The notes below the pieces were generated by a model. It was given only the letters and a program-made list of their open reading frames with translations, made no database searches and was not told where the DNA came from. From Iodobacter sp. (GTDB lineage Bacteria > Pseudomonadota > Gammaproteobacteria > Burkholderiales > Chitinibacteraceae), in assembly GCF_025352645.1 (NCBI RefSeq), contig NZ_JANXSO010000026.1, forward strand, positions 1-58,636: a DNA stretch of 58,636 bases, written 5' to 3'. Within the stretch, counting starts at the first letter, position 1, and each line of letters begins with the position of its first letter. Below are positions 2,130 to 53,175 of the stretch, one piece after another. The translations under genes were made by a program, and so were the position numbers.

Positions 2130-2422
2130 TATTTTCCTCGCTTCCAGCTACCACGATCATATTCTGCATGCGTCAAAATGGAGCGAATATAGATCTTGTG
2201 TCGGTTGTAGTGAATAGAAGCAATCAGTCGGTACTTGTTGCCCCCGATATTGAATATGGTCAATCCATCAACATAATCAGCACTGGGATAGGTAGTCCTT
2301 AAGTCGTTAAAATCGACAAAAGCCTCACTTTCTACCGTGCGAAACCATGCCTGCAGTGGGCTTTGGGCATTAGGATGACGGGTCCAGAATTCTACAAGGA
2401 TAGGTTTAGATATAACGTGCAT
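2129..2422 (-). CDS. higB: HigB-type mRNA interferase toxin
   Basis: 97 aa, the usual length of HigB toxins of the RelE superfamily. It begins MHVISKPILVEFW and carries the family segments LTIFNIGGNKYRLIA and HYNRHKIYIRSILTHAEYD, which form the ribosome-dependent mRNase core. It is the first gene of the pair with higA. The 48 bases between its start and the transposase remnant at 2470 must contain its promoter. Confidence 0.92.
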   Translation of the reverse strand: MHVISKPILVEFWTRHPNAQSPLQAWFRTVESEAFVDFNDLRTTYPSADYVDGLTIFNIGGNKYRLIASIHYNRHKIYIRSILTHAEYDRGSWKRGK

Positions 2423-2469
2423 GATTTAAGTATATACCAAAATGGTATTGCGTCAATTCTGGGGGAGCA

Positions 2470-2691
2470 TTGCGCCAGCTTCTTCTGCCAAATGGCTTGG
2501 TGCTGGAAAGTGCGCTAGCTGAGTTTTCTTTGTTCTACAATTTCATCCGCCCTCATCAAAACCTAGCTGGCCTTACACCCGCTGACGCTTGGCAAGGGCG
2601 GACGTGGGTTGATATCCAGCAGTCAGACAGTGATCCTATTTTGGTCGAGGCGTTGGATGGTTTGTTGGCAGGGTATTATCTGCGGCAATAG
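2470..2691 (+). pseudogene. 3' remnant of an integrase-core transposase (IS481-like)
   Basis: The 73-codon frame contains FYNFIRPHQNLAGLTPADAW, the conserved C-terminal end of rve-type DDE transposases (IS481/IS3 relatives), followed by about 35 residues and a stop. The catalytic D, D and most of the core are missing. The frame has no proper start and begins next to the higB promoter, so it is a truncated remnant. Confidence 0.7.
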
Positions 2692-2730
2692 CTAAGCAGT
2701 AAGGCGCGTTCTATAGCAAATTTGACTGTC

Positions 2731-3112
2731 CGCAAAATGGAGGGAGAAGCACGTCAGGAGCTGCCGGGGTGCTTAAAAAATAGTTAAACCAACGCATATC
2801 GAATTCCGCTCTAGGTAGAAATTGAGCTGAAATGTGTTGGTTTTGCTTTGAAAATACTGACACTGGGCCTCGGGGAGGCATGGCGGACAGTCGGACACGA
2901 CACCGCAAAATGGAGGGTGAAGCACGTCTGCATAAGTCAGTTTGCGTGAAAAAGAGTCAAACCAGCTCATATCTGATATCGATCTAGGTAGAAGTTGAGC
3001 TGAAATGTGATGGTTTTGCTTTGAAAATACTGACAATGTGTATCAGATAGTTATGGCGGACACTCGGATATGACAACAGTCGGACATGGCAACAACACTC
3101 GGACACGACAAC
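2731..3112. repeat. Two-copy degenerate direct repeat (about 173 bp) plus short CGGACACGAC repeats
   Basis: A unit beginning CGCAAAATGGAGGG starts at 2731 and again at 2904. The copies share long blocks such as TTGAGCTGAAATGTG and GGTTTTGCTTTGAAAATA. The tail of the second copy runs into four degenerate copies of (A)CTCGGACACGACAAC up to about 3112. No gene is supported here. It looks like decayed IS-flanking sequence. Confidence 0.7.
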
Positions 3113-3226
3113 GGTAACGTATGGTATTATCTACAGACGAAATTTTGATGCAATTTTTCCTAAGTAGCATTAGTGCGAATTGCTTTGCAATTAAATAATT
3201 AACACATAAAAGGTAATTAATTCACA

Positions 3227-4066
3227 ATGATTATTGATTGTGGCGCCATTGTAAAAAAACTTGATACTGAGTTGATAGATGCTTGTTCAGTGCTTAGTAA
3301 AAATACTTCTCCGCCTAAGCTATGTGAGATTCTAGCTACATCAAATCAAGCTGTCTTATCTTATGCGGAAACAAAGAGACGTAAAGCTGAAGGGCTTGGA
3401 ATTATTTATGAGTCAATTATTTGTGATCAAAGCAAAAGTACTTCCGATGTTATAGAGGTTATTCAAAGACTCAATGAGGATTCTAGTGTTAATGGCATAC
3501 TTGTTGGTTTGCCTACATTTTCTCATGTTGATTCTGAAATGTTAGTAAATGCAATTAATCATAAAAAAGATATCGATGGGCTTGGTGTAAAAAATTCAAA
3601 CTTAATTTTATCTAATCAAGAGCACTTAGGTATAGCACCTGCGACTCCGTCCGCTGCTCTGCATATTATTGAATCATTATTAACACTTAGTGGAAAAAAT
3701 GTCTGTGTTATTGGACGAGGTCGTACTGTTGGTAGACCATTAATTCAGATGTTGATAAATCGGGATGCAACAGTAACGGTTTGCCATTCTAGAACACCTC
3801 TCTCTGCAATTGAAGACGCAGTTAAACAAAGCGATATTATTATTACAGCGATCGGTTGTCCTGGGAGAGTTAAAAGTGAGTGGTTCAGTGCAGATCAAGT
3901 TGCCATTGATTGCGGCATATCCTTTATAAATAATATTACAACAGGCGATTTGGATAGTGCAGCACTTTCTGCACGAGGTGTTATTGTTTCACCGGTTCCA
4001 AAGGGGGTTGGTGCAGTTACTAACTCTATGATTTTTTCAAACTTATTAAAAGCAATTCGTCTATAA
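3227..4066 (+). CDS. FolD-like methylenetetrahydrofolate dehydrogenase with degenerate cyclohydrolase site
   Basis: 279 aa, normal FolD length. FolD oxidises 5,10-methylene-THF to methenyl-THF with NADP and hydrolyses it to 10-formyl-THF. Seen: the catalytic S-Y...K segment (SYAETKRRKAEG), KDIDGLGV, a Rossmann loop VIGRGRTVGRP, VTVCHSRT and a C-terminal PVPKGVGAVTNSM. Differences: the canonical QLPLP motif reads GLPTF, so the Gln that partners the catalytic Lys is Gly; PCTP reads PATP. From work on human MTHFD1 this Gln is important for the cyclohydrolase step, so the enzyme may be mainly a dehydrogenase (inference). The next gene, 8 bases downstream, encodes an FchA-type cyclohydrolase that could supply the missing step. 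An AAGG lies upstream of the ATG at a rather long distance. Confidence 0.88.
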   Translation: MIIDCGAIVKKLDTELIDACSVLSKNTSPPKLCEILATSNQAVLSYAETKRRKAEGLGIIYESIICDQSKSTSDVIEVIQRLNEDSSVNGILVGLPTFSHVDSEMLVNAINHKKDIDGLGVKNSNLILSNQEHLGIAPATPSAALHIIESLLTLSGKNVCVIGRGRTVGRPLIQMLINRDATVTVCHSRTPLSAIEDAVKQSDIIITAIGCPGRVKSEWFSADQVAIDCGISFINNITTGDLDSAALSARGVIVSPVPKGVGAVTNSMIFSNLLKAIRL

Positions 4067-4074
4067 AGTTTAAT

Positions 4075-4692
4075 ATGAAAAGTATCTATTCACACATCCC
4101 GAATTCAATTCCCAGCCTTTTTGAAGCTGCTGCATCAACAAATCCAGTCCCTGGGGGGGGGAGCGTAGTTTGTACTTGTGCTAATTTAGGTGTCGCTTTA
4201 CTTTTGAAGGCAATTAGAATTACCTTGAAAAGTGATAGTATTGAAAAACTGGTTGTTGCGGATCTTTCTTTTCAAGAAAATGCAGAAAATTTGCTGAGTT
4301 TTGCACAAAGAGATGCTAATGTTTTTTTTCAATACATTTCCGCTTTAAATTTACCTAAGCAAACAACAGATGAGCAAGTTAATCGTGTAAAACATATTGA
4401 AAAAGCTGCAATAGATGCGATAGCACTAGGGGTTTTAATGGCAGAAACGGGGAATGACATCTTAAAAACTTGTATAGAAATTAAGCCTCTGATAAAACGT
4501 ACCATTGTTGCAGATATTCATGCTGGCGCATATTTGGTTTCTGCTATGGTTTCTGTTGCTATTGAAAATGCACGTGCAAATCTTTTGAGTATCAAAGGGA
4601 ATCTTTCTTATCATGAATTAGATAGCAATCTATTAAATATAAATGACATTCACATGAAATTAATATCAGATTTGTTAGCATTTGAAAGATAA
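4075..4692 (+). CDS. FchA / formiminotransferase-cyclodeaminase family protein
   Basis: 205 aa, the length of stand-alone cyclodeaminase-fold proteins (methenyl-THF cyclohydrolase FchA or the cyclodeaminase half of FTCD). Seen: the signature NPVPGGGSVVC near residue 23, then an all-helical body with DANVFFQYISA, AAIDAIALGV and IVADIHAGAYL, where D and A positions typical of the family recur. Adjacent to the FolD-like gene (8-base gap), it most plausibly converts methenyl-THF to 10-formyl-THF. Odd: the GGG codons form an uninterrupted run of nine G (4153-4161), a possible slippage site that would truncate the protein after about 27 residues. Confidence 0.85.
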   Translation: MKSIYSHIPNSIPSLFEAAASTNPVPGGGSVVCTCANLGVALLLKAIRITLKSDSIEKLVVADLSFQENAENLLSFAQRDANVFFQYISALNLPKQTTDEQVNRVKHIEKAAIDAIALGVLMAETGNDILKTCIEIKPLIKRTIVADIHAGAYLVSAMVSVAIENARANLLSIKGNLSYHELDSNLLNINDIHMKLISDLLAFER

Positions 4693-4791
4693 AATTATTT
4701 TTTTTCGTAATAATGCATACTGCTCAGCTAATAGTGCTCTAGTTGAATTTTGAAAAGTGGGGCATTGGTTTTCAGTCCCCACTTTACTTTT

Positions 4792-4963
4792 CCTGATTAT
4801 GTCTCTTGCTCAGGCCCCCTTGATTTAGTAATCTATATGGCATTAATTCGGACGGTCTGATCTGTTTTGAGTTGGGGAGCCCTTAGTCCACACATGCTGC
4901 ATGCCTTACTCTAGTCAGACCACGCCCATATGGGCGCTTGGCTGAGCAAGAGACAGAATCAGG
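4792..4963. mobile_element. 172-bp MITE derived from the IS1595-type element
   Basis: The ends (4792-4814 and 4942-4963, inverted) match over 22 bases with one mismatch and are the same sequence as the IS end at 117-139. The similarity to that IS continues inward over CCCTTGATTTAG. The flanks TTACTTTT (4784-4791) and TCACTTTT (4964-4971) agree at 7 of 8 positions, fitting the 8-bp target duplication known for the IS1595 family. There is no gene inside. It lies between fchA and the ACP gene. Confidence 0.75.
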
Positions 4964-4971
4964 TCACTTTT

Positions 4972-5610
4972 TATAATAATTACATGATGGCTACAATCGT
5001 TAGCAAGTGCATTTTTTTAAAATAGATTAACATGCCAGGTGAAATTTTATCATATAAAAATTGTAACTAACTCAGGTGTGTGAGCAAAACCCAAATCTTG
5101 AACCACAGAGAACACAGAGTTTCACAGAGAAAATGATAGATTTGATGGTTTACTCTGTGGTTCAAGGTTTAGCACTCTATCCTTTTAGTCGACGGTGCTG
5201 TCTCGTGCACGCATGTTGTTTAGATGAAAAAAATAATATTCCTTGTATATTCGAGGTTCTTATTTTATTAGCATTTTTTAGTAAAAAAATCAGAATAATC
5301 CTAGCATACTCAAACGAAAGAAGGTTTCTGGGTGCGTGGGAAACAAGCCTTATCAAACAGGCTCTTTTCTAAATGAATTTTCCAAAGTATTAATTGGGAT
5401 ATGTTACTGCTTGAAAATAAAAAATTCATGTTCGATTTAAACAGTATCTTTCGCATAACCTATTCGTTCTTCATTTTATAAGGTTATGACTTTATATGGC
5501 TAATGAATTTAGTATGCCATTTTAAGGGATAGATAACATATTTTTTATGGTCTTTTTAAAATTAATTTGACCTAGGTAGAATGGCTTTATAGATAAAAAG
5601 GTTTGGTTAA
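4972..5610. other. Non-coding interval before the ACP gene
   Basis: About 640 AT-rich bases. It contains a direct/near repeat of the kind 'ACCACAGAGAACACAGAG' (about 5081-5100, an intergenic motif) and no frame with coding character. The ACP promoter must lie near the right end, but no clear -35/-10 pair stands out. Confidence 0.5.
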
Positions 5611-44917: not shown

Positions 44918-47900
44918 TTAAGACGACATCCATCGACTCTTAACCACCCGCCTTGGTGTTTTCTGCTCTCCAGAAACAGCAAGGCCACCGTGCTTGGTGG
45001 CTTTATTGAGGGCTGTTTGAGAAGCAGGATCGGAGCTGACGCCTAGTTGTCGTTCCAACTCCCGCCAATGTCGCTCTTCAAAGCGGTCCAGCCCTGCGGC
45101 AGCGGCTGATGCGCGACTATATACGGCACAATTACCTGCAATCAGCATCTTGCCATGTCGGCGCACAATCAATGTGCCATTGGATACCGTAGCGCAATAA
45201 ATCCGTCCATCGTAAAGCTTCTCTTTAACCATACATTTTCTGTCTGTGCCATCGAGTGCAGCACTGCGTCGTTTATTGTTTTCACGTACCCAATATTGAG
45301 TTCTGCTCGTCGGACCAGAGCGTCCATTTATTGCCCATGGCCCCGACTCTTTTTCGGTCACACTTGGGCTTCCACCCAATTTTAAGAATAGCTCGGCCAT
45401 ATCATCAGCAAGTAGCTTGCTCGTCGTTGCATAGCTGCGATGAATACCATCTTGTATCCAGCCATCGCCAGCAATAGCGGCATCGACAAATGCAGTAATG
45501 ATCCTCGGGTCGCTATTTTTAACCCACTGCGGCACTCTGCGTTCTTCTTGATATCCCGGACAAACTTGAAACAGATAATCATAAAGTTGCTTAGATGAAA
45601 TTGCAGCGGCATACCGATCCCAGTGCCAACACCAAGGTAGTGCATCAAGAACGTGAGCAATTTGCTCCCGCCCTTGAAGTTTGGTCTGTGCAATATAAAC
45701 TATTTTTCTAATGCTGCTTTTATGCGCCGTAATGGTTAAGCAACCTTCAGCCACATACCAGCCAAGAAATGCGGCAAAAGCAACTGCATCCACTTCACGG
45801 GCGGGTTCAATCACCATTTTGTCACGCCGTTTTATGCTGGCCGGAATCCTTACTGTTTGAATCCCATTTCCAAGCCAGTGCGTTTTAATCTTAATGGTGT
45901 GATTAACTTTCAGATCTTTGGCCTGTGTCACCTGCACAGGCACATCAAAATTCCATTTACCAATTTTACGATCAAATACTTTATGAAAAGTCAGCATGCG
46001 ATGATTAGGCGTGACAGCAAAATTTAAACGCTTCCCTTCAACAACCATCATCGGGCCTTGATAAGGGCGATTAATCAAATATTGTGGACTCTGGTATTCA
46101 ATACAATCTGTTTCTAAATTGACCGTCGCCATTAAGTCACCAAAACCAATATCTGCAAAACGCTTCCAACCCACATAAGTGAGTGCCTCAGTTTCTTCAT
46201 CAAAGCAGTCCAAGCCTTCGTTTCTTTCGCGCATCTTCTGCCATTCCCTGACTTGGAAGCCGTTACGGTTAGGATGGGTCACCAGTTGCTCGGCGCATAG
46301 TTGCTGGATATATTCCGCGTCAATCTTGGGTAAATGCACATAGCCCGCTGGATAACTAAGGCTGCCGTCATCGGCGACATCGACGCTTTTACGTAGATTG
46401 TTGTACAGCTCGAGTTTGGCGATGCTGACGGTGACGGCGTACAGCTTGATGCCGCGACGTAAGCGTTTGCCACCCTGATTCACATCCACAGCCGTGGGAA
46501 TGCCGATCAATGCCGCGCCACGTGGCACACCTTTTACCGCCATGATTCGCGGATCGTGGCAAGCTCGTACAAAGGCGTAGGCTTCTTGCGTGGCATAGCC
46601 AGTGTCGATGGCAAAGCGTACTAAGGGCATCTTTGCGCCGCAGCTGTGGCTCCATGTTTCAGCGATCAGGCTGGCTAGATTTTTCCAAACCGTATCGCGG
46701 GCGGTGTCGCCCATCATGACGCGATGCTCAATCAGCCAGCTTTCTTTGCCTCGGCCAAAGGCCCAGATTGAGGCTTCGATACGATCTTTTTGAATATCGG
46801 CTCCACCCACCAACAGCAGGCCACCCAGTGGCACGATGCCCATCGGGTAATCTTCGCGCCGCTCCAGTAATCGTTGCCAATCAGGTGCTTCGCCTTCCTC
46901 AACCCACGTTTCGCCCAGATCAGTATTTTTAAAAGTTTTAATCACCGCCGCTGAGCCCGTTTCCTTCTCTAGCGCAGCCTCCCAACTGGCAGCAATATCG
47001 CACCAACTGCGCCAGCCCACCGGGCTATATAGGGATGAGAGGTGAAAGCCTGCCGTTGCCTGCTCTGGAGCCATTGCTTGCCATTGGCCGTGCTCCAGCA
47101 TCCATGTTTTGTGCTGCTCATTAATGGCTTGCTCGCAGGCTTCGCAATAATAGGCGGCGCTGGTGGGATCGCCTTTTTGCCAACGTAATTGCTCAAAACG
47201 CAAGTGCTGGCGGTGCTGGCAATGAGGGCAGGGGACGAAGTAACGTCCTTGATCTGAGGCTGCATATTCCCTCTCAATCGCACTGGCTCCGGCAATGGTC
47301 GGGGTCGACACGATAAAAATCTTGCGCCTGGCAAAGGTACGGGTGCGAGCTTCGGCCAAAGCAATCGCATCGCCTTCTCCATCCACATCGTGTGGATAGG
47401 CATCGACTTCATCTAAAAACAAATACCGCACCGGCATGGAGCGCAAGCCGACCGCGCTATTGGCTCCAGTCATCACCAATACACCGCCCCTGAATTCCTT
47501 GGTCAGAATGGTATTGCCAGAATCTCTCGATCTGGCCGGTGAAATCAACTCGGCCAGCGCGGGTGATTCTTCAATCAATGAATCGATACGTTGCTTAGAA
47601 TTGCGCTTGGCCATTTCTACCGTTGGCGAGACAAACATCATCGGCCCCGGCGCTTGATGAATCACATAAGCAATTGCGTTATTGATGCATTCCGTCGCAC
47701 CCAGTTGTGAGCCTTTGATGAACACCACGCGCTCGATGGAAGACATCGGCGATAAGCAATTCATGATCGCTTTTAAGTAAGGCGTGCGGCTGGTTCGCCA
47801 ACGCCCCGGCTCGGCAGAGGCTTTGCTGGATAACATCCGATGCTGATCTGCCCACTCAGACACCGATAGCAGTGGGTCAGGCAGCAGACCGTCATACCAA

Positions 47901-47950
47901 GCCTGCTCAATATCCAGTAAGCCGTCTTCACCCTCGCCGCGTGGCATCAT
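44918..47950 (-). CDS. Terminase large subunit (GpA) interrupted by an in-frame intein
   Basis: 1010 codons. Extein: GpA-type packaging ATPase with VFIKGSQLGATE as Walker A, LFLDEVDAYPHD as Walker B, FVPCPHCQHRQHLRFEQL zinc ribbon, and nuclease region with GADIQKDRIEASIWAFG and RFAIDTGYATQEAYAFV. The N- and C-exteins total about 651 aa, normal for GpA. The intein occupies residues 582-940. ATG shares bases with the stop of the small-subunit gene (TAATG). The intein must splice out to yield a functional terminase. Confidence 0.93.
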   Translation of the reverse strand: MMPRGEGEDGLLDIEQAWYDGLLPDPLLSVSEWADQHRMLSSKASAEPGRWRTSRTPYLKAIMNCLSPMSSIERVVFIKGSQLGATECINNAIAYVIHQAPGPMMFVSPTVEMAKRNSKQRIDSLIEESPALAELISPARSRDSGNTILTKEFRGGVLVMTGANSAVGLRSMPVRYLFLDEVDAYPHDVDGEGDAIALAEARTRTFARRKIFIVSTPTIAGASAIEREYAASDQGRYFVPCPHCQHRQHLRFEQLRWQKGDPTSAAYYCEACEQAINEQHKTWMLEHGQWQAMAPEQATAGFHLSSLYSPVGWRSWCDIAASWEAALEKETGSAAVIKTFKNTDLGETWVEEGEAPDWQRLLERREDYPMGIVPLGGLLLVGGADIQKDRIEASIWAFGRGKESWLIEHRVMMGDTARDTVWKNLASLIAETWSHSCGAKMPLVRFAIDTGYATQEAYAFVRACHDPRIMAVKGVPRGAALIGIPTAVDVNQGGKRLRRGIKLYAVTVSIAKLELYNNLRKSVDVADDGSLSYPAGYVHLPKIDAEYIQQLCAEQLVTHPNRNGFQVREWQKMRERNEGLDCFDEETEALTYVGWKRFADIGFGDLMATVNLETDCIEYQSPQYLINRPYQGPMMVVEGKRLNFAVTPNHRMLTFHKVFDRKIGKWNFDVPVQVTQAKDLKVNHTIKIKTHWLGNGIQTVRIPASIKRRDKMVIEPAREVDAVAFAAFLGWYVAEGCLTITAHKSSIRKIVYIAQTKLQGREQIAHVLDALPWCWHWDRYAAAISSKQLYDYLFQVCPGYQEERRVPQWVKNSDPRIITAFVDAAIAGDGWIQDGIHRSYATTSKLLADDMAELFLKLGGSPSVTEKESGPWAINGRSGPTSRTQYWVRENNKRRSAALDGTDRKCMVKEKLYDGRIYCATVSNGTLIVRRHGKMLIAGNCAVYSRASAAAAGLDRFEERHWRELERQLGVSSDPASQTALNKATKHGGLAVSGEQKTPRRVVKSRWMSS
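45131..46207 (-). other. Intein (359 aa) with LAGLIDADG-type endonuclease inside terminase
   Basis: Residues 582-940 of the terminase ORF. First residue Cys (CFDEETEALTYVGW, block A), block B TPNHRML with the TxxH motif, two LAGLIDADG-like blocks (AAFLGWYVAEGCLTI and AFVDAAIAGDGWIQ), block F ATVSNGTLIVRRHGKM, and last residues IAGN followed by a Cys as the first C-extein residue. Ends are Cys1...Asn/Cys+1, the standard class 1 chemistry. The homing endonuclease looks intact, so the intein may be mobile between phages. Confidence 0.92.
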
Positions 47951-50203: not shown

Positions 50204-50429
50204 CCAACAAGCCCACTCTGGGCTTGGTAGCGTCGTTGAAGCTCATCCAGCGGCATGACTATGATCATTCATCCCAACCCTGTTCAAGCCTTTGATTCTG
50301 CATGGCTTGATTCACTGTTGGCTTGGCCGCTTGTAAATCAGCAAATAGCAGCGCCTTTAAGCTTGTATTGACAATGTGTATACGTCGCATCTAAGCTGAT
50401 GGTTGTGTATTCATTGTGTGGACATCATC

Positions 50430-50693
50430 ATGCGTAATATTTCAATAAATCTGCGTGCTCTGTCTGAGCAACGTGACCTAATTGATCGTGCTGCTCGCGT
50501 CACCGGTAAAAACCGTTCTGATTTTATGTTGGAAGCCGCTTGCGAGAAAGCGCAGAACATCGTGCTTGAACGGGCTTTTTTTGCTTTAGATCAAGAGGCA
50601 TTCTCCCGTTTCGCCGCTGTGCTGGATGCGCCTGTTGAGGCCAATCCATCGTTGGATCGCTTATTGTCTAAGCGCCCATTGTGGGAGCAGTAA
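50430..50693 (+). CDS. TacA-type antitoxin (DUF1778)
   Basis: 87 aa from the ATG at 50430 (MRNISINLRALSEQRDLIDRAARV). RHH-type DUF1778 features: ISINLRALSEQRDLIDRAA and a KNRSDFMLEAACEKAQNIVL helix, with an Ala/Pro-rich C-terminus and a final LDRLLSKRPLWE. Its stop is one base from the toxin start. Antitoxin of a GNAT-type toxin that acetylates aminoacyl-tRNA. Confidence 0.93.
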   Translation: MRNISINLRALSEQRDLIDRAARVTGKNRSDFMLEAACEKAQNIVLERAFFALDQEAFSRFAAVLDAPVEANPSLDRLLSKRPLWEQ

Positions 50694-50694
50694 G

Positions 50695-51177
50695 TTGTTA
50701 TCTGCCCCAGAACTCTTAAATTCAGATCATGATCTCAGTGCGTTTTACTGTGGCGAGCCAATCATGGACGACTGGCTAAAACGTCGTGCATTAGCCAATC
50801 AAGCCTCCGGTGCTTCACGCTGTTTTGTTGTGGTCGATGAGCGCCGTATCGTGCGTGCCTATTATGCCTTGGCCGCTGGAGCAGTGGATCATGCCTTGGT
50901 AGCGAGCGCCCTTCGCCGCAATATGCCTGATCCTATTCCGGTGATGGTCTTGGGAAGGCTGGCGGTAGACCAACCCTTTCATGGCAAAGGCTTAGGGGCT
51001 GATTTGCTGCGTGATGCGATTTTGCGAACCACCCGATTGGCTCAGGAAGTCGGTATTAGAGCGTTGCTCGTGCATGCGCTGCACCAGAAGGCGAGAGATT
51101 TTTATCTGCATCATGGATTTGGTGAATCTGCTATTGATCCGTTGATTTTGATGTTAAGAATTCGCACTGCTGATTAG
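50695..51177 (+). CDS. TacT-type GNAT toxin
   Basis: 160 aa from the TTG at 50695 (reads LLSAPELLNSDHDLSAFYCG), the typical TacT start, with GGGAG upstream. GNAT core: ALANQASGASRCFVVVD, PIPVMVLGRLAVDQPFHGKGLGADLL (acetyl-CoA loop QxxxGxG), IRALLVHALHQKARDFYLHHGF. TacT acetylates charged tRNA to block translation. Overlaps the tail of the opposing methyltransferase gene by 24 bases. Confidence 0.93.
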   Translation: MLSAPELLNSDHDLSAFYCGEPIMDDWLKRRALANQASGASRCFVVVDERRIVRAYYALAAGAVDHALVASALRRNMPDPIPVMVLGRLAVDQPFHGKGLGADLLRDAILRTTRLAQEVGIRALLVHALHQKARDFYLHHGFGESAIDPLILMLRIRTAD

Positions 51178-53175
51178 GCTCTGCTTATTTTGTAAATCAG
51201 CAAATAGCAGCCCATCAGATTGACGGCTCGCTTGCTTGCCCGTCCAATTTTGCCACCTACAAATGATCACATCGCAATACTTCGGGTCCAGTTCCATCAG
51301 CCTTGCGTAGCGACCTAATTTTTCGCAGGCGATGAGGGTGGTGCCTGAGCCTGCAAAGCAATCGAGCACGATCTGACGGGAGCGGCTGCTGTTGCGAATG
51401 GCTCGCTCGACCAGCTCCACGGGCTTCATCGTGTTGTGAGACATGCCAATGCGCGTTTCAAACGTAGGGCTGTCCTTCACCGACAAATTCCACACCAGCC
51501 CCGAGTAATTTATTTTCTCGACGGCGCTTACGCTTCGCAGAACGAAGTTGTACCACTTTTCTGATATGACACGGACGGCATCCCCATCCATAGGGAAACC
51601 CATCCGCGCTGAAATACCAGTGTTCTGGGGATACAGGTTTAAGCGATCCGCAAGCGTGGCAAGGCTTCCACCAAACGCCATCGTGGAGGACACAACCGGA
51701 GTGAATCCGCTTGTGCTCAAGGTAGGTGACAAGTTGTAGGTTTGAAATTTGATTGTTTTGCTTGTTGCCATCAATGTGATGGATGCAGTGTCCGTCTGGG
51801 ATTGCCCCGCAGTTTCGTTCCCAGACGACGTCATGTTCCATTCTGAGATGTTTTCCGTATTGGATTCGAATGTAGCCTTTGTTGGTGAGCATATCTCGTC
51901 TCCTACCATGATTTGTGATGCCTCGACCCACGCCAATTCGCCGTCACGTAAAACGAGGAATGGGTGGTTATGGGTGGCATCGACTGCACGCTCAACACCC
52001 GAAACAGCGATCCGGAATATGCACTTTTCAATAAAATGAGACGACACCAACTCGACTGAGCGAAACACACCATCTGCCGTCAGGACGCAATCACCGGCGA
52101 CCAACGATTCGATGATTCGCCAACCGTTCTCCGTTAACACCTCTGTGCCCGTGCATAGGCAAGGATGAAGGTCATTTTTATTGGGCTTGTTGATTTGCCA
52201 CACATCACCTTGATTGCGGTCGCCGCACCAGAAGTGATCAATGCCTTCTTTCCAGCCGTAGAGGATAGGTTCGTATTGGCGCTGGTAATCGGCACGCCCC
52301 AGCGTGAAGTGATTTTTAGCCCAGATGATAAAGGTTGACCATTTACCACCGGCAGCACGAAAGGCGGCTTGCAGGGTGTCCAGCTCGCTCGACGACATGG
52401 CGATATAGATTGCACCCTTGGTGTATTGCAGAATGTGCGTGCAGGCGGTGGTCAAAAAGCCTGCAAATTCACCGCCTAAATTGTCGTTGAGAATAGGCCG
52501 GTAGCTACCGCGTAGTCTGTCTTTAGGTGTGGTGGCGTAATTTACGTTGTAAGGCGGATCGACAAAGCTCATGTCGGCCAAGTCTCCCGCCATCAGCGCC
52601 GTAAAATCATCCGCATCCGTCGCATTGCCACACAGCAAGCGGTGCTCGCCCAGCAGCCAGATATCGCCCAGCTGTGAAATGGCTACTTCTTGAGTTTCAG
52701 GTACCGCGTCGTCTTCGCTTAGCCCTTCGCTTTCCTCTGCGGCCAAGAGCTCGGCCAGCTCGTCTGGGTCGAAGCCGGTGAGGGATAGATCGAAATCTTC
52801 AAGTTGTAATTCTTCCAGCTCAAGTCGCAGCAACTCCTCGTCCCATTGCGCCCACGTTGCCGAGCGATTCGCTAACAGCCGAAACGCTTTGATCTGTGCC
52901 GGAGTCAAGTCATCGGCCAAAATCACCGGTACGGTTTCCAATCCCAGCAGACGTGCTGCCTTCAAGCGTAAATGACCATCCACCAGTAAGCCATCAGACT
53001 GAGCAATACAAGGAATCCGAAACCCAAACTCCTGAATCGCTGCGGCCATCTGCTCTACTGCATGATCATTTTTACGTGGATTACGGGCGTATTCATGCAG
53101 GCGGGCAATGGGCCAGAGTTCAAACTTTAAGGGGGACGTTGGATGATTTTCAAGCATGGGAAGATCCTTCATCAC
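51154..53175 (-). CDS. ParB-domain/DNA methyltransferase interrupted by an intein
   Basis: 673 codons. Residues 15-110 are a ParB-like nuclease/sulfiredoxin fold (LHEYARNPRKNDHAVEQMAAAIQEFG, LLVDGHLRLKAARLL). Then a beta-class N6/N4-adenine/cytosine methyltransferase: DPPYNVNYA (motif IV) followed later by DCFAGSGTTLIACEKLGR (motif I). The intein (residues 339-581) sits exactly between HP and TMKPVELVERAI, i.e. within motif X (HPTMKP). Extein total about 430 aa, normal for the family. Such enzymes protect phage DNA or form part of phage regulation. Overlaps the 79-aa gene upstream and the tacT end downstream. Confidence 0.92.
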   Translation of the reverse strand: MMKDLPMLENHPTSPLKFELWPIARLHEYARNPRKNDHAVEQMAAAIQEFGFRIPCIAQSDGLLVDGHLRLKAARLLGLETVPVILADDLTPAQIKAFRLLANRSATWAQWDEELLRLELEELQLEDFDLSLTGFDPDELAELLAAEESEGLSEDDAVPETQEVAISQLGDIWLLGEHRLLCGNATDADDFTALMAGDLADMSFVDPPYNVNYATTPKDRLRGSYRPILNDNLGGEFAGFLTTACTHILQYTKGAIYIAMSSSELDTLQAAFRAAGGKWSTFIIWAKNHFTLGRADYQRQYEPILYGWKEGIDHFWCGDRNQGDVWQINKPNKNDLHPCLCTGTEVLTENGWRIIESLVAGDCVLTADGVFRSVELVSSHFIEKCIFRIAVSGVERAVDATHNHPFLVLRDGELAWVEASQIMVGDEICSPTKATFESNTENISEWNMTSSGNETAGQSQTDTASITLMATSKTIKFQTYNLSPTLSTSGFTPVVSSTMAFGGSLATLADRLNLYPQNTGISARMGFPMDGDAVRVISEKWYNFVLRSVSAVEKINYSGLVWNLSVKDSPTFETRIGMSHNTMKPVELVERAIRNSSRSRQIVLDCFAGSGTTLIACEKLGRYARLMELDPKYCDVIICRWQNWTGKQASRQSDGLLFADLQNKQSLISSANS
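51433..52161 (-). other. Intein (243 aa) within the methyltransferase, with an out-of-frame HNH gene inside
   Basis: Residues 339-581. First residue Cys (CLCTGTEVLTENGW, block A), block B DATHNHPFLVL with TxxH, block F SGLVWNLSVKDSPTF, last residues GMSHN, and Thr as the first C-extein residue. The exteins reconnect to LHP-TMKPVE, the normal methyltransferase sequence. The central portion (residues about 430-540) is Ser/Thr-rich and lacks an in-frame homing endonuclease. Instead an HNH gene occupies the same DNA in another frame of the same strand. Confidence 0.9.
51458..51892 (-). CDS. HNH homing endonuclease nested out of frame inside the intein
   Basis: 144 aa starting at the ATG at 51892, with AGGAG at 51900-51904 seven bases upstream. 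Reads MLTNKGYIRIQYGKHLRMEH and then an HNH_3 core: IPDGHCIHHIDGNKQNN with the catalytic His pair and Asn, and NLQLVTYLEHKRIHSG. C-terminal residues have paired Cys (CHACGSL and GCRPCHI) as a likely zinc-binding region. The frame is shifted relative to the intein and methyltransferase, so it must be translated from its own start. The two reading frames overlap over all 435 bases. Likely the mobility enzyme of the intein. Confidence 0.85.
   Translation of the reverse strand: MLTNKGYIRIQYGKHLRMEHDVVWERNCGAIPDGHCIHHIDGNKQNNQISNLQLVTYLEHKRIHSGCVLHDGVWWKPCHACGSLKPVSPEHWYFSADGFPYGWGCRPCHIRKVVQLRSAKRKRRRENKLLGAGVEFVGEGQPYV

Follow-up and report, generated by a model that had tools for sequence, protein, structure and literature searches.

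A methylase gene of the window, by which we mean the whole 58,636-nucleotide stretch of Iodobacter sp. DNA analyzed here, carries an intein whose central part also contains a complete HNH endonuclease gene in another reading frame of the same strand. We consider it highly probable that this element is a mobile intein whose homing endonuclease is a separate, overlapping gene that was acquired by capture. At the level of sequence comparison, the anatomy of the element, its recurrence in relatives, and the dual constraint on its frames are established.

The methylase gene carries an intein without an in-frame endonuclease

The host gene encodes a ParB_N–N6_N4 methylase (phrog_498) on the minus strand at positions 51154–53175; it is interrupted by the intein, and its frame is open throughout. 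The intein comprises 243 codons (51433–52161, minus strand) and lies between HP and TMKP, with the host residues ...NDLHP before it and TMKPVE... after it. It starts with Cys1, contains a TxxH block (THNH), ends in His-Asn, and is followed by Thr+1. An original prediction, made from the letters of the DNA alone, had given these coordinates and motifs, and our analysis confirmed them exactly. The identification as an intein also holds, as all of these residues are present and the relatives match the Pfam profile Intein_splicing (PF14890).

Searched alone, the window intein matched Intein_splicing with an E of 1.9e-7 and Hint_2 with an E of 9.2e-6, both below the curated cut-offs. Intein_splicing matched all 13 homologous inteins at E 0.01 or better, and the splicing residues are kept in 13/13, one of which (L047) lacks its C end because its contig ends there. 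The N-terminal Hint half (residues 1–92; 51886–52161, minus strand) is conserved in the alignment and forms strands in the AlphaFold model, with pLDDT blocks of ∼63–79. The intein-frame linker that follows (residues 93–202; 51556–51885, minus strand) overlaps most of the HNH gene; it is Ser/Thr-rich, of low complexity, predicted to be unstructured, and the least conserved frame, and residues 101–200 reach a modeled pLDDT of only ∼22–29. The C-terminal Hint part (residues 203–243; 51433–51555, minus strand), ending in VWNLSVKDSPTFETRIGMSHN, is conserved in relatives, with 80–90% amino acid identity to seven of eight and 100% to L026. Overall, the model has strands in residues 7–94 and 205–228, a mean pLDDT of 48, and low confidence outside the Hint parts. 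All nine of its PDB matches at E ≤ 0.001 were inteins or intein-like (best, 2.6e-4).

The low-confidence model and the profile scores below the cut-offs count against an intein. By its residues, its Hint fold and profile match, and its precise insertion site, the element nevertheless meets the definition, with autocatalytic splicing inferred. No endonuclease profile matched the intein frame, in line with the predicted absence of an in-frame endonuclease from the intein center; the element does not qualify as an in-frame-endonuclease intein, its HNH lying in another frame.

The HNH gene is complete and has its own ATG

The predicted 144-amino acid HNH_3-type gene was recovered in full, with its profile match, its ATG, and an AGGAG 7 nt upstream. 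It occupies 51458–51892 (minus strand, 144 codons plus stop), its codons begin one base before the intein codons, and it combines an HNH core with CxxC...CxxC. The match to HNH_3 (PF13392; E 5.9e-15) is above the curated cut-off. The same profile matched 27/27 HNH relatives, across which HH...N...H and the CxxC pairs (Cys/His/Asn) are conserved. The AlphaFold model has a mean pLDDT of 89. Its best PDB match was I-HmuI (E 0.017), with no PDB match at E 0.001, and I-HmuI was also the best, although weak, sequence match (E 0.17).

The internal ATG (51890–51892, minus strand) is made by an intein-frame ATA (Ile)–TGC (Cys) pair. This ATATGC context is found in 13/13 alleles, which are related to one another; elsewhere ATA is rare, accounting for 3/174 upstream Ile codons. 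The Shine-Dalgarno (SD)-like AGGAG lies at 51900–51904 (minus strand), and in 12/12 alleles of the lineage, the site before the ATG falls within the best 3.5% of local positions for anti-SD pairing. Here, GGAGACGAG doubles as the conserved Gly-Asp-Glu of the intein; because they encode these residues, the SD-like bases are partly forced and are weak evidence alone. Three partial copies (L008, L012, and L017) have an insertion at the SD-like site, yet GGAGG still precedes the ATG. The HNH starts chosen in the distant inteins L056 and L072 lack an SD, and in the terminase intein L186, described below, the HNH gene starts at a GTG with GGAGGT. Based on the SD-like site and the ATA-TGC context, and without any experiment, separate expression of the HNH protein from its own start appears well supported in this lineage.

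Alternatively, the HNH protein could lack a start of its own and be a fusion, produced when ribosomes on the methylase-intein frame undergo programmed frameshifting. Such a shift would link the two frames, and start signals are weak in some relatives. However, the open part of the HNH frame reaches back only four codons from the ATG in L006 and two in L056, leaving a very short stretch for frameshifting, in which no slippery heptamer was seen in either (inspected by eye only), and the ATG and the SD-like site are kept. We regard a frameshift product as very unlikely.

Neither chance nor sequencing error explains the arrangement

The original prediction held that the intein frame stays open across the whole overlap and reads as a linker. 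Both points stood, and the open frame is no chance outcome (P ∼0.0015): when the synonymous codons of the window's HNH gene were reshuffled in 4,000 trials, the intein frame was open in 0.15%. In 6/6 non-nested relatives, the frame corresponding to the intein frame contains 2–6 stops. The 35 nested rows of this test were selected as nested, and their lack of stops is by choice.

The insertion site and frame relation seen in the window are shared by eight additional full-length inteins: four from metagenome-assembled genomes (L026, Janthinobacterium; L027, Proteobacteria; L029, Accumulibacter; and L030, Rhodocyclaceae) and four from viral contigs (L002, L006, L007, and L040). All nine are 729 bp long and were compared without gaps; therefore, two compensating errors are excluded. 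The partial copies L005, L008, L012, and L017 are consistent over their available length. One full-length intein, L040 (on the same contig as L045), has a single HNH-frame stop with the intein frame open. Stops in the HNH frame of relatives had been named as a potential refutation; this one case aside, the full-length inteins have none.

A second potential refutation, homologs with the HNH in frame, was sought and not encountered in any of 50 methylase-group loci or in any of the best 80 terminase-group loci, where the HNH-frame ORFs measured 76–258 and 171–282 amino acids, respectively. An error that split a single in-frame intein-HNH fusion thus has virtually no chance of being the explanation. 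Breaks do occur in the family, but the same gapless frame relation in nine full-length inteins and in 40/40 nested methylase-group loci already refutes an error here, and on these alignments neither chance nor error explains the arrangement. One such break was seen in L028, an Accumulibacter allele close to L029, whose two frames are merged and disrupted by an indel in the overlap that may be real or an assembly error.

Codon positions reveal which frame is constrained

As a stand-in for an overlapping-frame dN/dS, we determined the mean pairwise divergence at intein codon positions 1/2/3 among the nine inteins; position counts were not corrected for relatedness. The N-terminal Hint half showed an ordinary pattern (0.163/0.080/0.343). 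In the overlap core, the values were 0.079/0.276/0.115, and the loose position was the intein second position, which is the HNH third. The position counts of variable sites differed between the N-half and the core (chi-square p 3e-10, uncorrected for relatedness). Where the HNH tail runs over the C-terminal Hint part, divergence was 0.124/0.104/0.139, so both frames bind there. The overlap core of seven relatives is 76–80% identical to the window in the HNH frame and 55–62% in the intein-frame peptide; L026, a near copy of the window, was excluded from this comparison. The intein frame had been predicted to be constrained only to avoid stops, with a codon-pattern comparison as the proposed check. 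This stood for the overlap core, where the HNH is the conserved frame; over the HNH tail, both frames are constrained.

Counts of variable sites by HNH codon position were 41/26/53 and 17/5/32 in intein-less methylase insertions and 28/17/63, 19/20/49, and 3/0/12 in the terminase groups described below. One further terminase pair gave 1/4/3, which is uninformative.

HNH relatives lie out of frame in methylase genes with and without inteins

A search of viral contigs with the HNH alignment returned 50 loci, several of them on near-duplicate contigs. The HNH is out of frame in a methylase intein in 12, out of frame in an intein-less methylase in 28, not nested in 10, and in frame in 0. Three of these inteins are distant (L055, L056, and L072); they share the site HP/T[QM]KP, the slash marking the insertion point, and are 29–33% identical to the window intein. 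Of 22 intein-less insertions, 21 have an HPTVKP-type motif no more than 25 bp from the HNH stop, and Intein_splicing matched 0/22 scanned. Six of the eight non-nested HNH genes tested lie directly 3′ of a ParB-methylase, and no ParB-methylase was found near the other two (L059 and L061).

In named phage records, the window intein had only three matches, at 29% identity over half its length, and the window HNH had 201, all under 60% identity; neither had a match in plasmid records. Among 369 genomes of the class, the search returned the window itself and three weak HNH matches.

Two other inserts were noticed by eye. L018 has at 2194–5016 a helicase-like gene with an apparent intein containing an in-frame HNH, adjoining a methylase with an intein-less out-of-frame HNH. 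In L189 (Mycobacterium phage Lilac), an in-frame intein-like insert lies near the N-terminal third of a methylase (786–2990) that belongs to the same broad family.

The intein-less loci resemble published elements. Out-of-frame HNH genes have been described in mycobacteriophage methylases as the ShiLan domain and the Pacc40 insertion (Arsenault, Gosselin, and Gogarten 2025, PMC11855218; PMC9957025), and another is in phage Applejack (PMC12613952), according to the portions of these articles available to us. In the accessible part of PMC11855218, the ShiLan authors report no intein or intron features, explicitly no known intein, and a GTG start of the HNH without a detectable ribosome-binding site. 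As far as those excerpts go, ShiLan and Pacc40 are like the window in having an out-of-frame HNH in a phage methylase, an open host frame, and a patchy distribution read as homing. Unlike ShiLan as there described, the window system has a Hint intein, the site HP/TMKP, an ATG with an SD-like site, and a second host family, the terminase. The Murica methylase insertion, which we take to be a ShiLan domain, agrees with the window in the register of its HNH and matches our HNH profile at 36.9 bits.

The window element could likewise be an out-of-frame HNH insertion retained unspliced in the methylase, its likeness to an intein being dead or incidental. Such elements exist, on the available text of PMC11855218, and 28/50 relatives look like them, with no Intein_splicing match in the 22 scanned. 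The window has an out-of-frame HNH and an open host frame, as these elements do, but does not share their lack of splicing motifs: all splicing residues are present and are kept in 13/13 PF14890-matching homologs (L047 missing its C end), the N- and C-terminal Hint parts are conserved, and codon-position constraint in the N-half is ordinary. On these sequences, the 28 intein-less loci fit the ShiLan type better than the window does, and we find an unspliced insertion quite unlikely for the window.

The same arrangement occurs in terminase genes

A distant HNH match led to the terminase intein L186 and then to named phages, namely Rhodobacteraceae phage LS06-2018-MD07, Tetrasphaera phage TJE1, and Acinetobacter phage Highwayman. 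Each has a Hint or intein match (weakest in TJE1, 5.8e-4) and an out-of-frame HNH_3, and each gene is annotated only as large terminase. Among the best 80 terminase-group HNH loci, 68 are out of frame inside terminase-type genes, mostly recognizable inteins, in both registers (61 nested with the host frame +1 and 7 with +2); 12 are not nested or are cut, and 0 are in frame. By a simple pattern, the 61 host +1 loci have both intein ends in 53 cases, the N end only in 6, the C end only in 1, and neither in 1. Of 57 nested hosts scanned, 51 matched Intein_splicing and up to 36 matched terminase profiles. Among 11 non-nested terminase-group HNH genes, a TerL match ends just upstream in 8, and two have no TerL or methylase neighbor.

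An SD rule for all nested HNH genes was considered and rejected, as it fails in the terminase loci: SD cores occur in 16/61 host +1 and 0/7 host +2 loci versus 80/1,026 background start-like triplets. Many distant relatives have at most a weak ribosome-site signal.

L231, the remaining one of the 11 non-nested terminase-group HNH genes, is located upstream of a methylase and not next to TerL, which may represent a switch of target gene. L178, L179, and L185 look by eye like in-frame HNH inteins of other groups; our searches targeted the present HNH groups and do not give the frequency of in-frame HNH inteins elsewhere.

The HNH tree separates target genes rather than architectures

A tree of 111 HNH proteins divided methylase from terminase groups with full support, and nested, intein-less, and free forms were mixed within each. 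Loyalty to the target gene thus seems, as far as this tree indicates, older than architecture. The tree forces at least three changes for the methylase inteins and only one for the terminase +2 group; the two terminase registers would argue for more than one origin. The tree leaves undecided whether free or nested forms came first. The pattern is best explained if inteins captured gene-aimed HNH genes, a direction that is inferred.

Empty sites and flanking codons give indirect signs of mobility

We examined the 80 best viral methylase homologs out of 396. The intein is present in one of them, and the other 79 have an uninterrupted HP/TMKP. All 13 invaded alleles use CCT for the Pro immediately preceding the insertion point, a codon used there by none of 78 empty alleles. 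These exact empty sites and the altered flanking codon, like the anatomy, the constraint on both frames, and the gene loyalty of the HNH, can be read directly from the alignments. For cutting of the empty target by the HNH protein, the empty sites, the CCT flank, and the gene loyalty are only indirect signs, and cutting remains an inference.

In some cases, the inteins are more alike than the sequences around them: the intein DNA of L002 and L007 is 89–90% identical, whereas their flanks are 81% identical over the first 150 bp upstream, 61% at 150–300 bp upstream, and 67% downstream. We dropped decay of flank similarity with distance as evidence of co-conversion or homing, as empty alleles decay likewise. 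The window and L026 (Janthinobacterium) are mostly 95–100% identical over ∼600 bp upstream of the intein; beyond that, a gapless comparison finds no relationship, and their ParB-like N-terminal sequences differ. Judging from this comparison, the change is a recombination border inside the methylase gene.

A proposed mechanism

In the mechanism we propose, every functional step is inferred, from protein splicing and translation of the HNH gene to cleavage by its product and homing, and so is the direction of capture. Ribosomes translating the methylase frame would make a precursor with a Hint splicing domain and an unstructured linker as its middle, and the intein would excise itself, joining HP with T. 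Initiation at the internal ATG, one frame off, would yield the free 144-amino acid HNH protein, which may cut intein-less methylase alleles near the HPTMKP codons; repair would then copy the intein and a little flank into the cut alleles. The element would have originated when an HNH gene already aimed at this methylase region came inside an intein, out of frame and with its own start kept.

It is also conceivable, but unlikely, that the HNH frame has decayed and is only a remnant, or that it serves a purpose other than homing, such as DNA packaging in the terminase group. The L040 stop could fit decay, and a role in packaging is described for some phage HNH proteins encoded near terminase genes (PMC10448857 and PMC12613952, in the portions available). 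Constraint on the HNH frame, patchy occupancy (1 of the best 80), and the CCT flank speak against both, and the same HNH group also occurs in methylase genes, which are not packaging genes.

Relation to known systems and implications

Group I intron HNH homing endonucleases such as I-HmuI are proteins of their own made from inside a self-removing element, as the window HNH would be. Unlike those introns, the window element would be removed by protein splicing, which is inferred, so the same bases must also encode a translatable linker. In in-frame-endonuclease inteins such as PI-SceI, a Hint domain at a conserved site likewise surrounds an endonuclease gene, with presumed homing, but the endonuclease is fused, as stated for intein endonucleases in the accessible text of Stoddard 2014 (PMC3943268), whereas that of the window would be produced separately, from a different frame. 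HNH homing genes that stand free next to their target, and collaborative homing with introns, are covered in the available part of PMC10448857. Non-nested relatives of the window HNH are similarly adjacent to ParB-methylase (6/8) or TerL (8/11), whereas the collaborative-homing genes described there are with introns or free, and the window HNH is inside an intein. TerL is the main intein gene in a mycobacteriophage survey (PMC5050341, as far as its text was available).

No published intein with an out-of-frame endonuclease came to our notice in the open-access literature, subscription papers being outside our scope. In the parts of that literature available, an out-of-frame HNH in a phage methylase appeared only as ShiLan, Pacc40, and phage Applejack. 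The arrangement is not unique to the window, and ShiLan is a published precedent for a similar out-of-frame HNH that lacks an intein.

Dual-coded inteins probably form a large unrecognized class in phages, in which HNH genes directed at methylase or terminase genes were captured by inteins several times, in both off-frame registers, with no need for in-frame fusion. If this is true, many inteins read as endonuclease-less, that is, as mini-inteins with long linkers, are mobile, and endonuclease surveys restricted to the intein frame would overlook them. It would break the usual picture of the intein homing endonuclease as an intein fusion and would offer a testable route to endonuclease gain, in which a site-targeting gene is captured whole and retains its start. 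The intein frame would adapt chiefly through stop avoidance, and these natural long overlapping genes, with one frame a disordered linker, would be material for studies of overlap evolution.

Neighboring features of the window

The prophage's own large terminase (GpA family; 44918–47950, minus strand) has an insert that reads as a second, conventional intein, with an in-frame LAGLIDADG_3 endonuclease (E 9.1e-7) and, by eye, the boundaries NEGLD/C...AGN/C. At 50403–51177 (plus strand), convergent with the methylase gene, lie a small ORF and, after it, a GNAT acetyltransferase (Pfam), an arrangement that we take to resemble a toxin-antitoxin pair.
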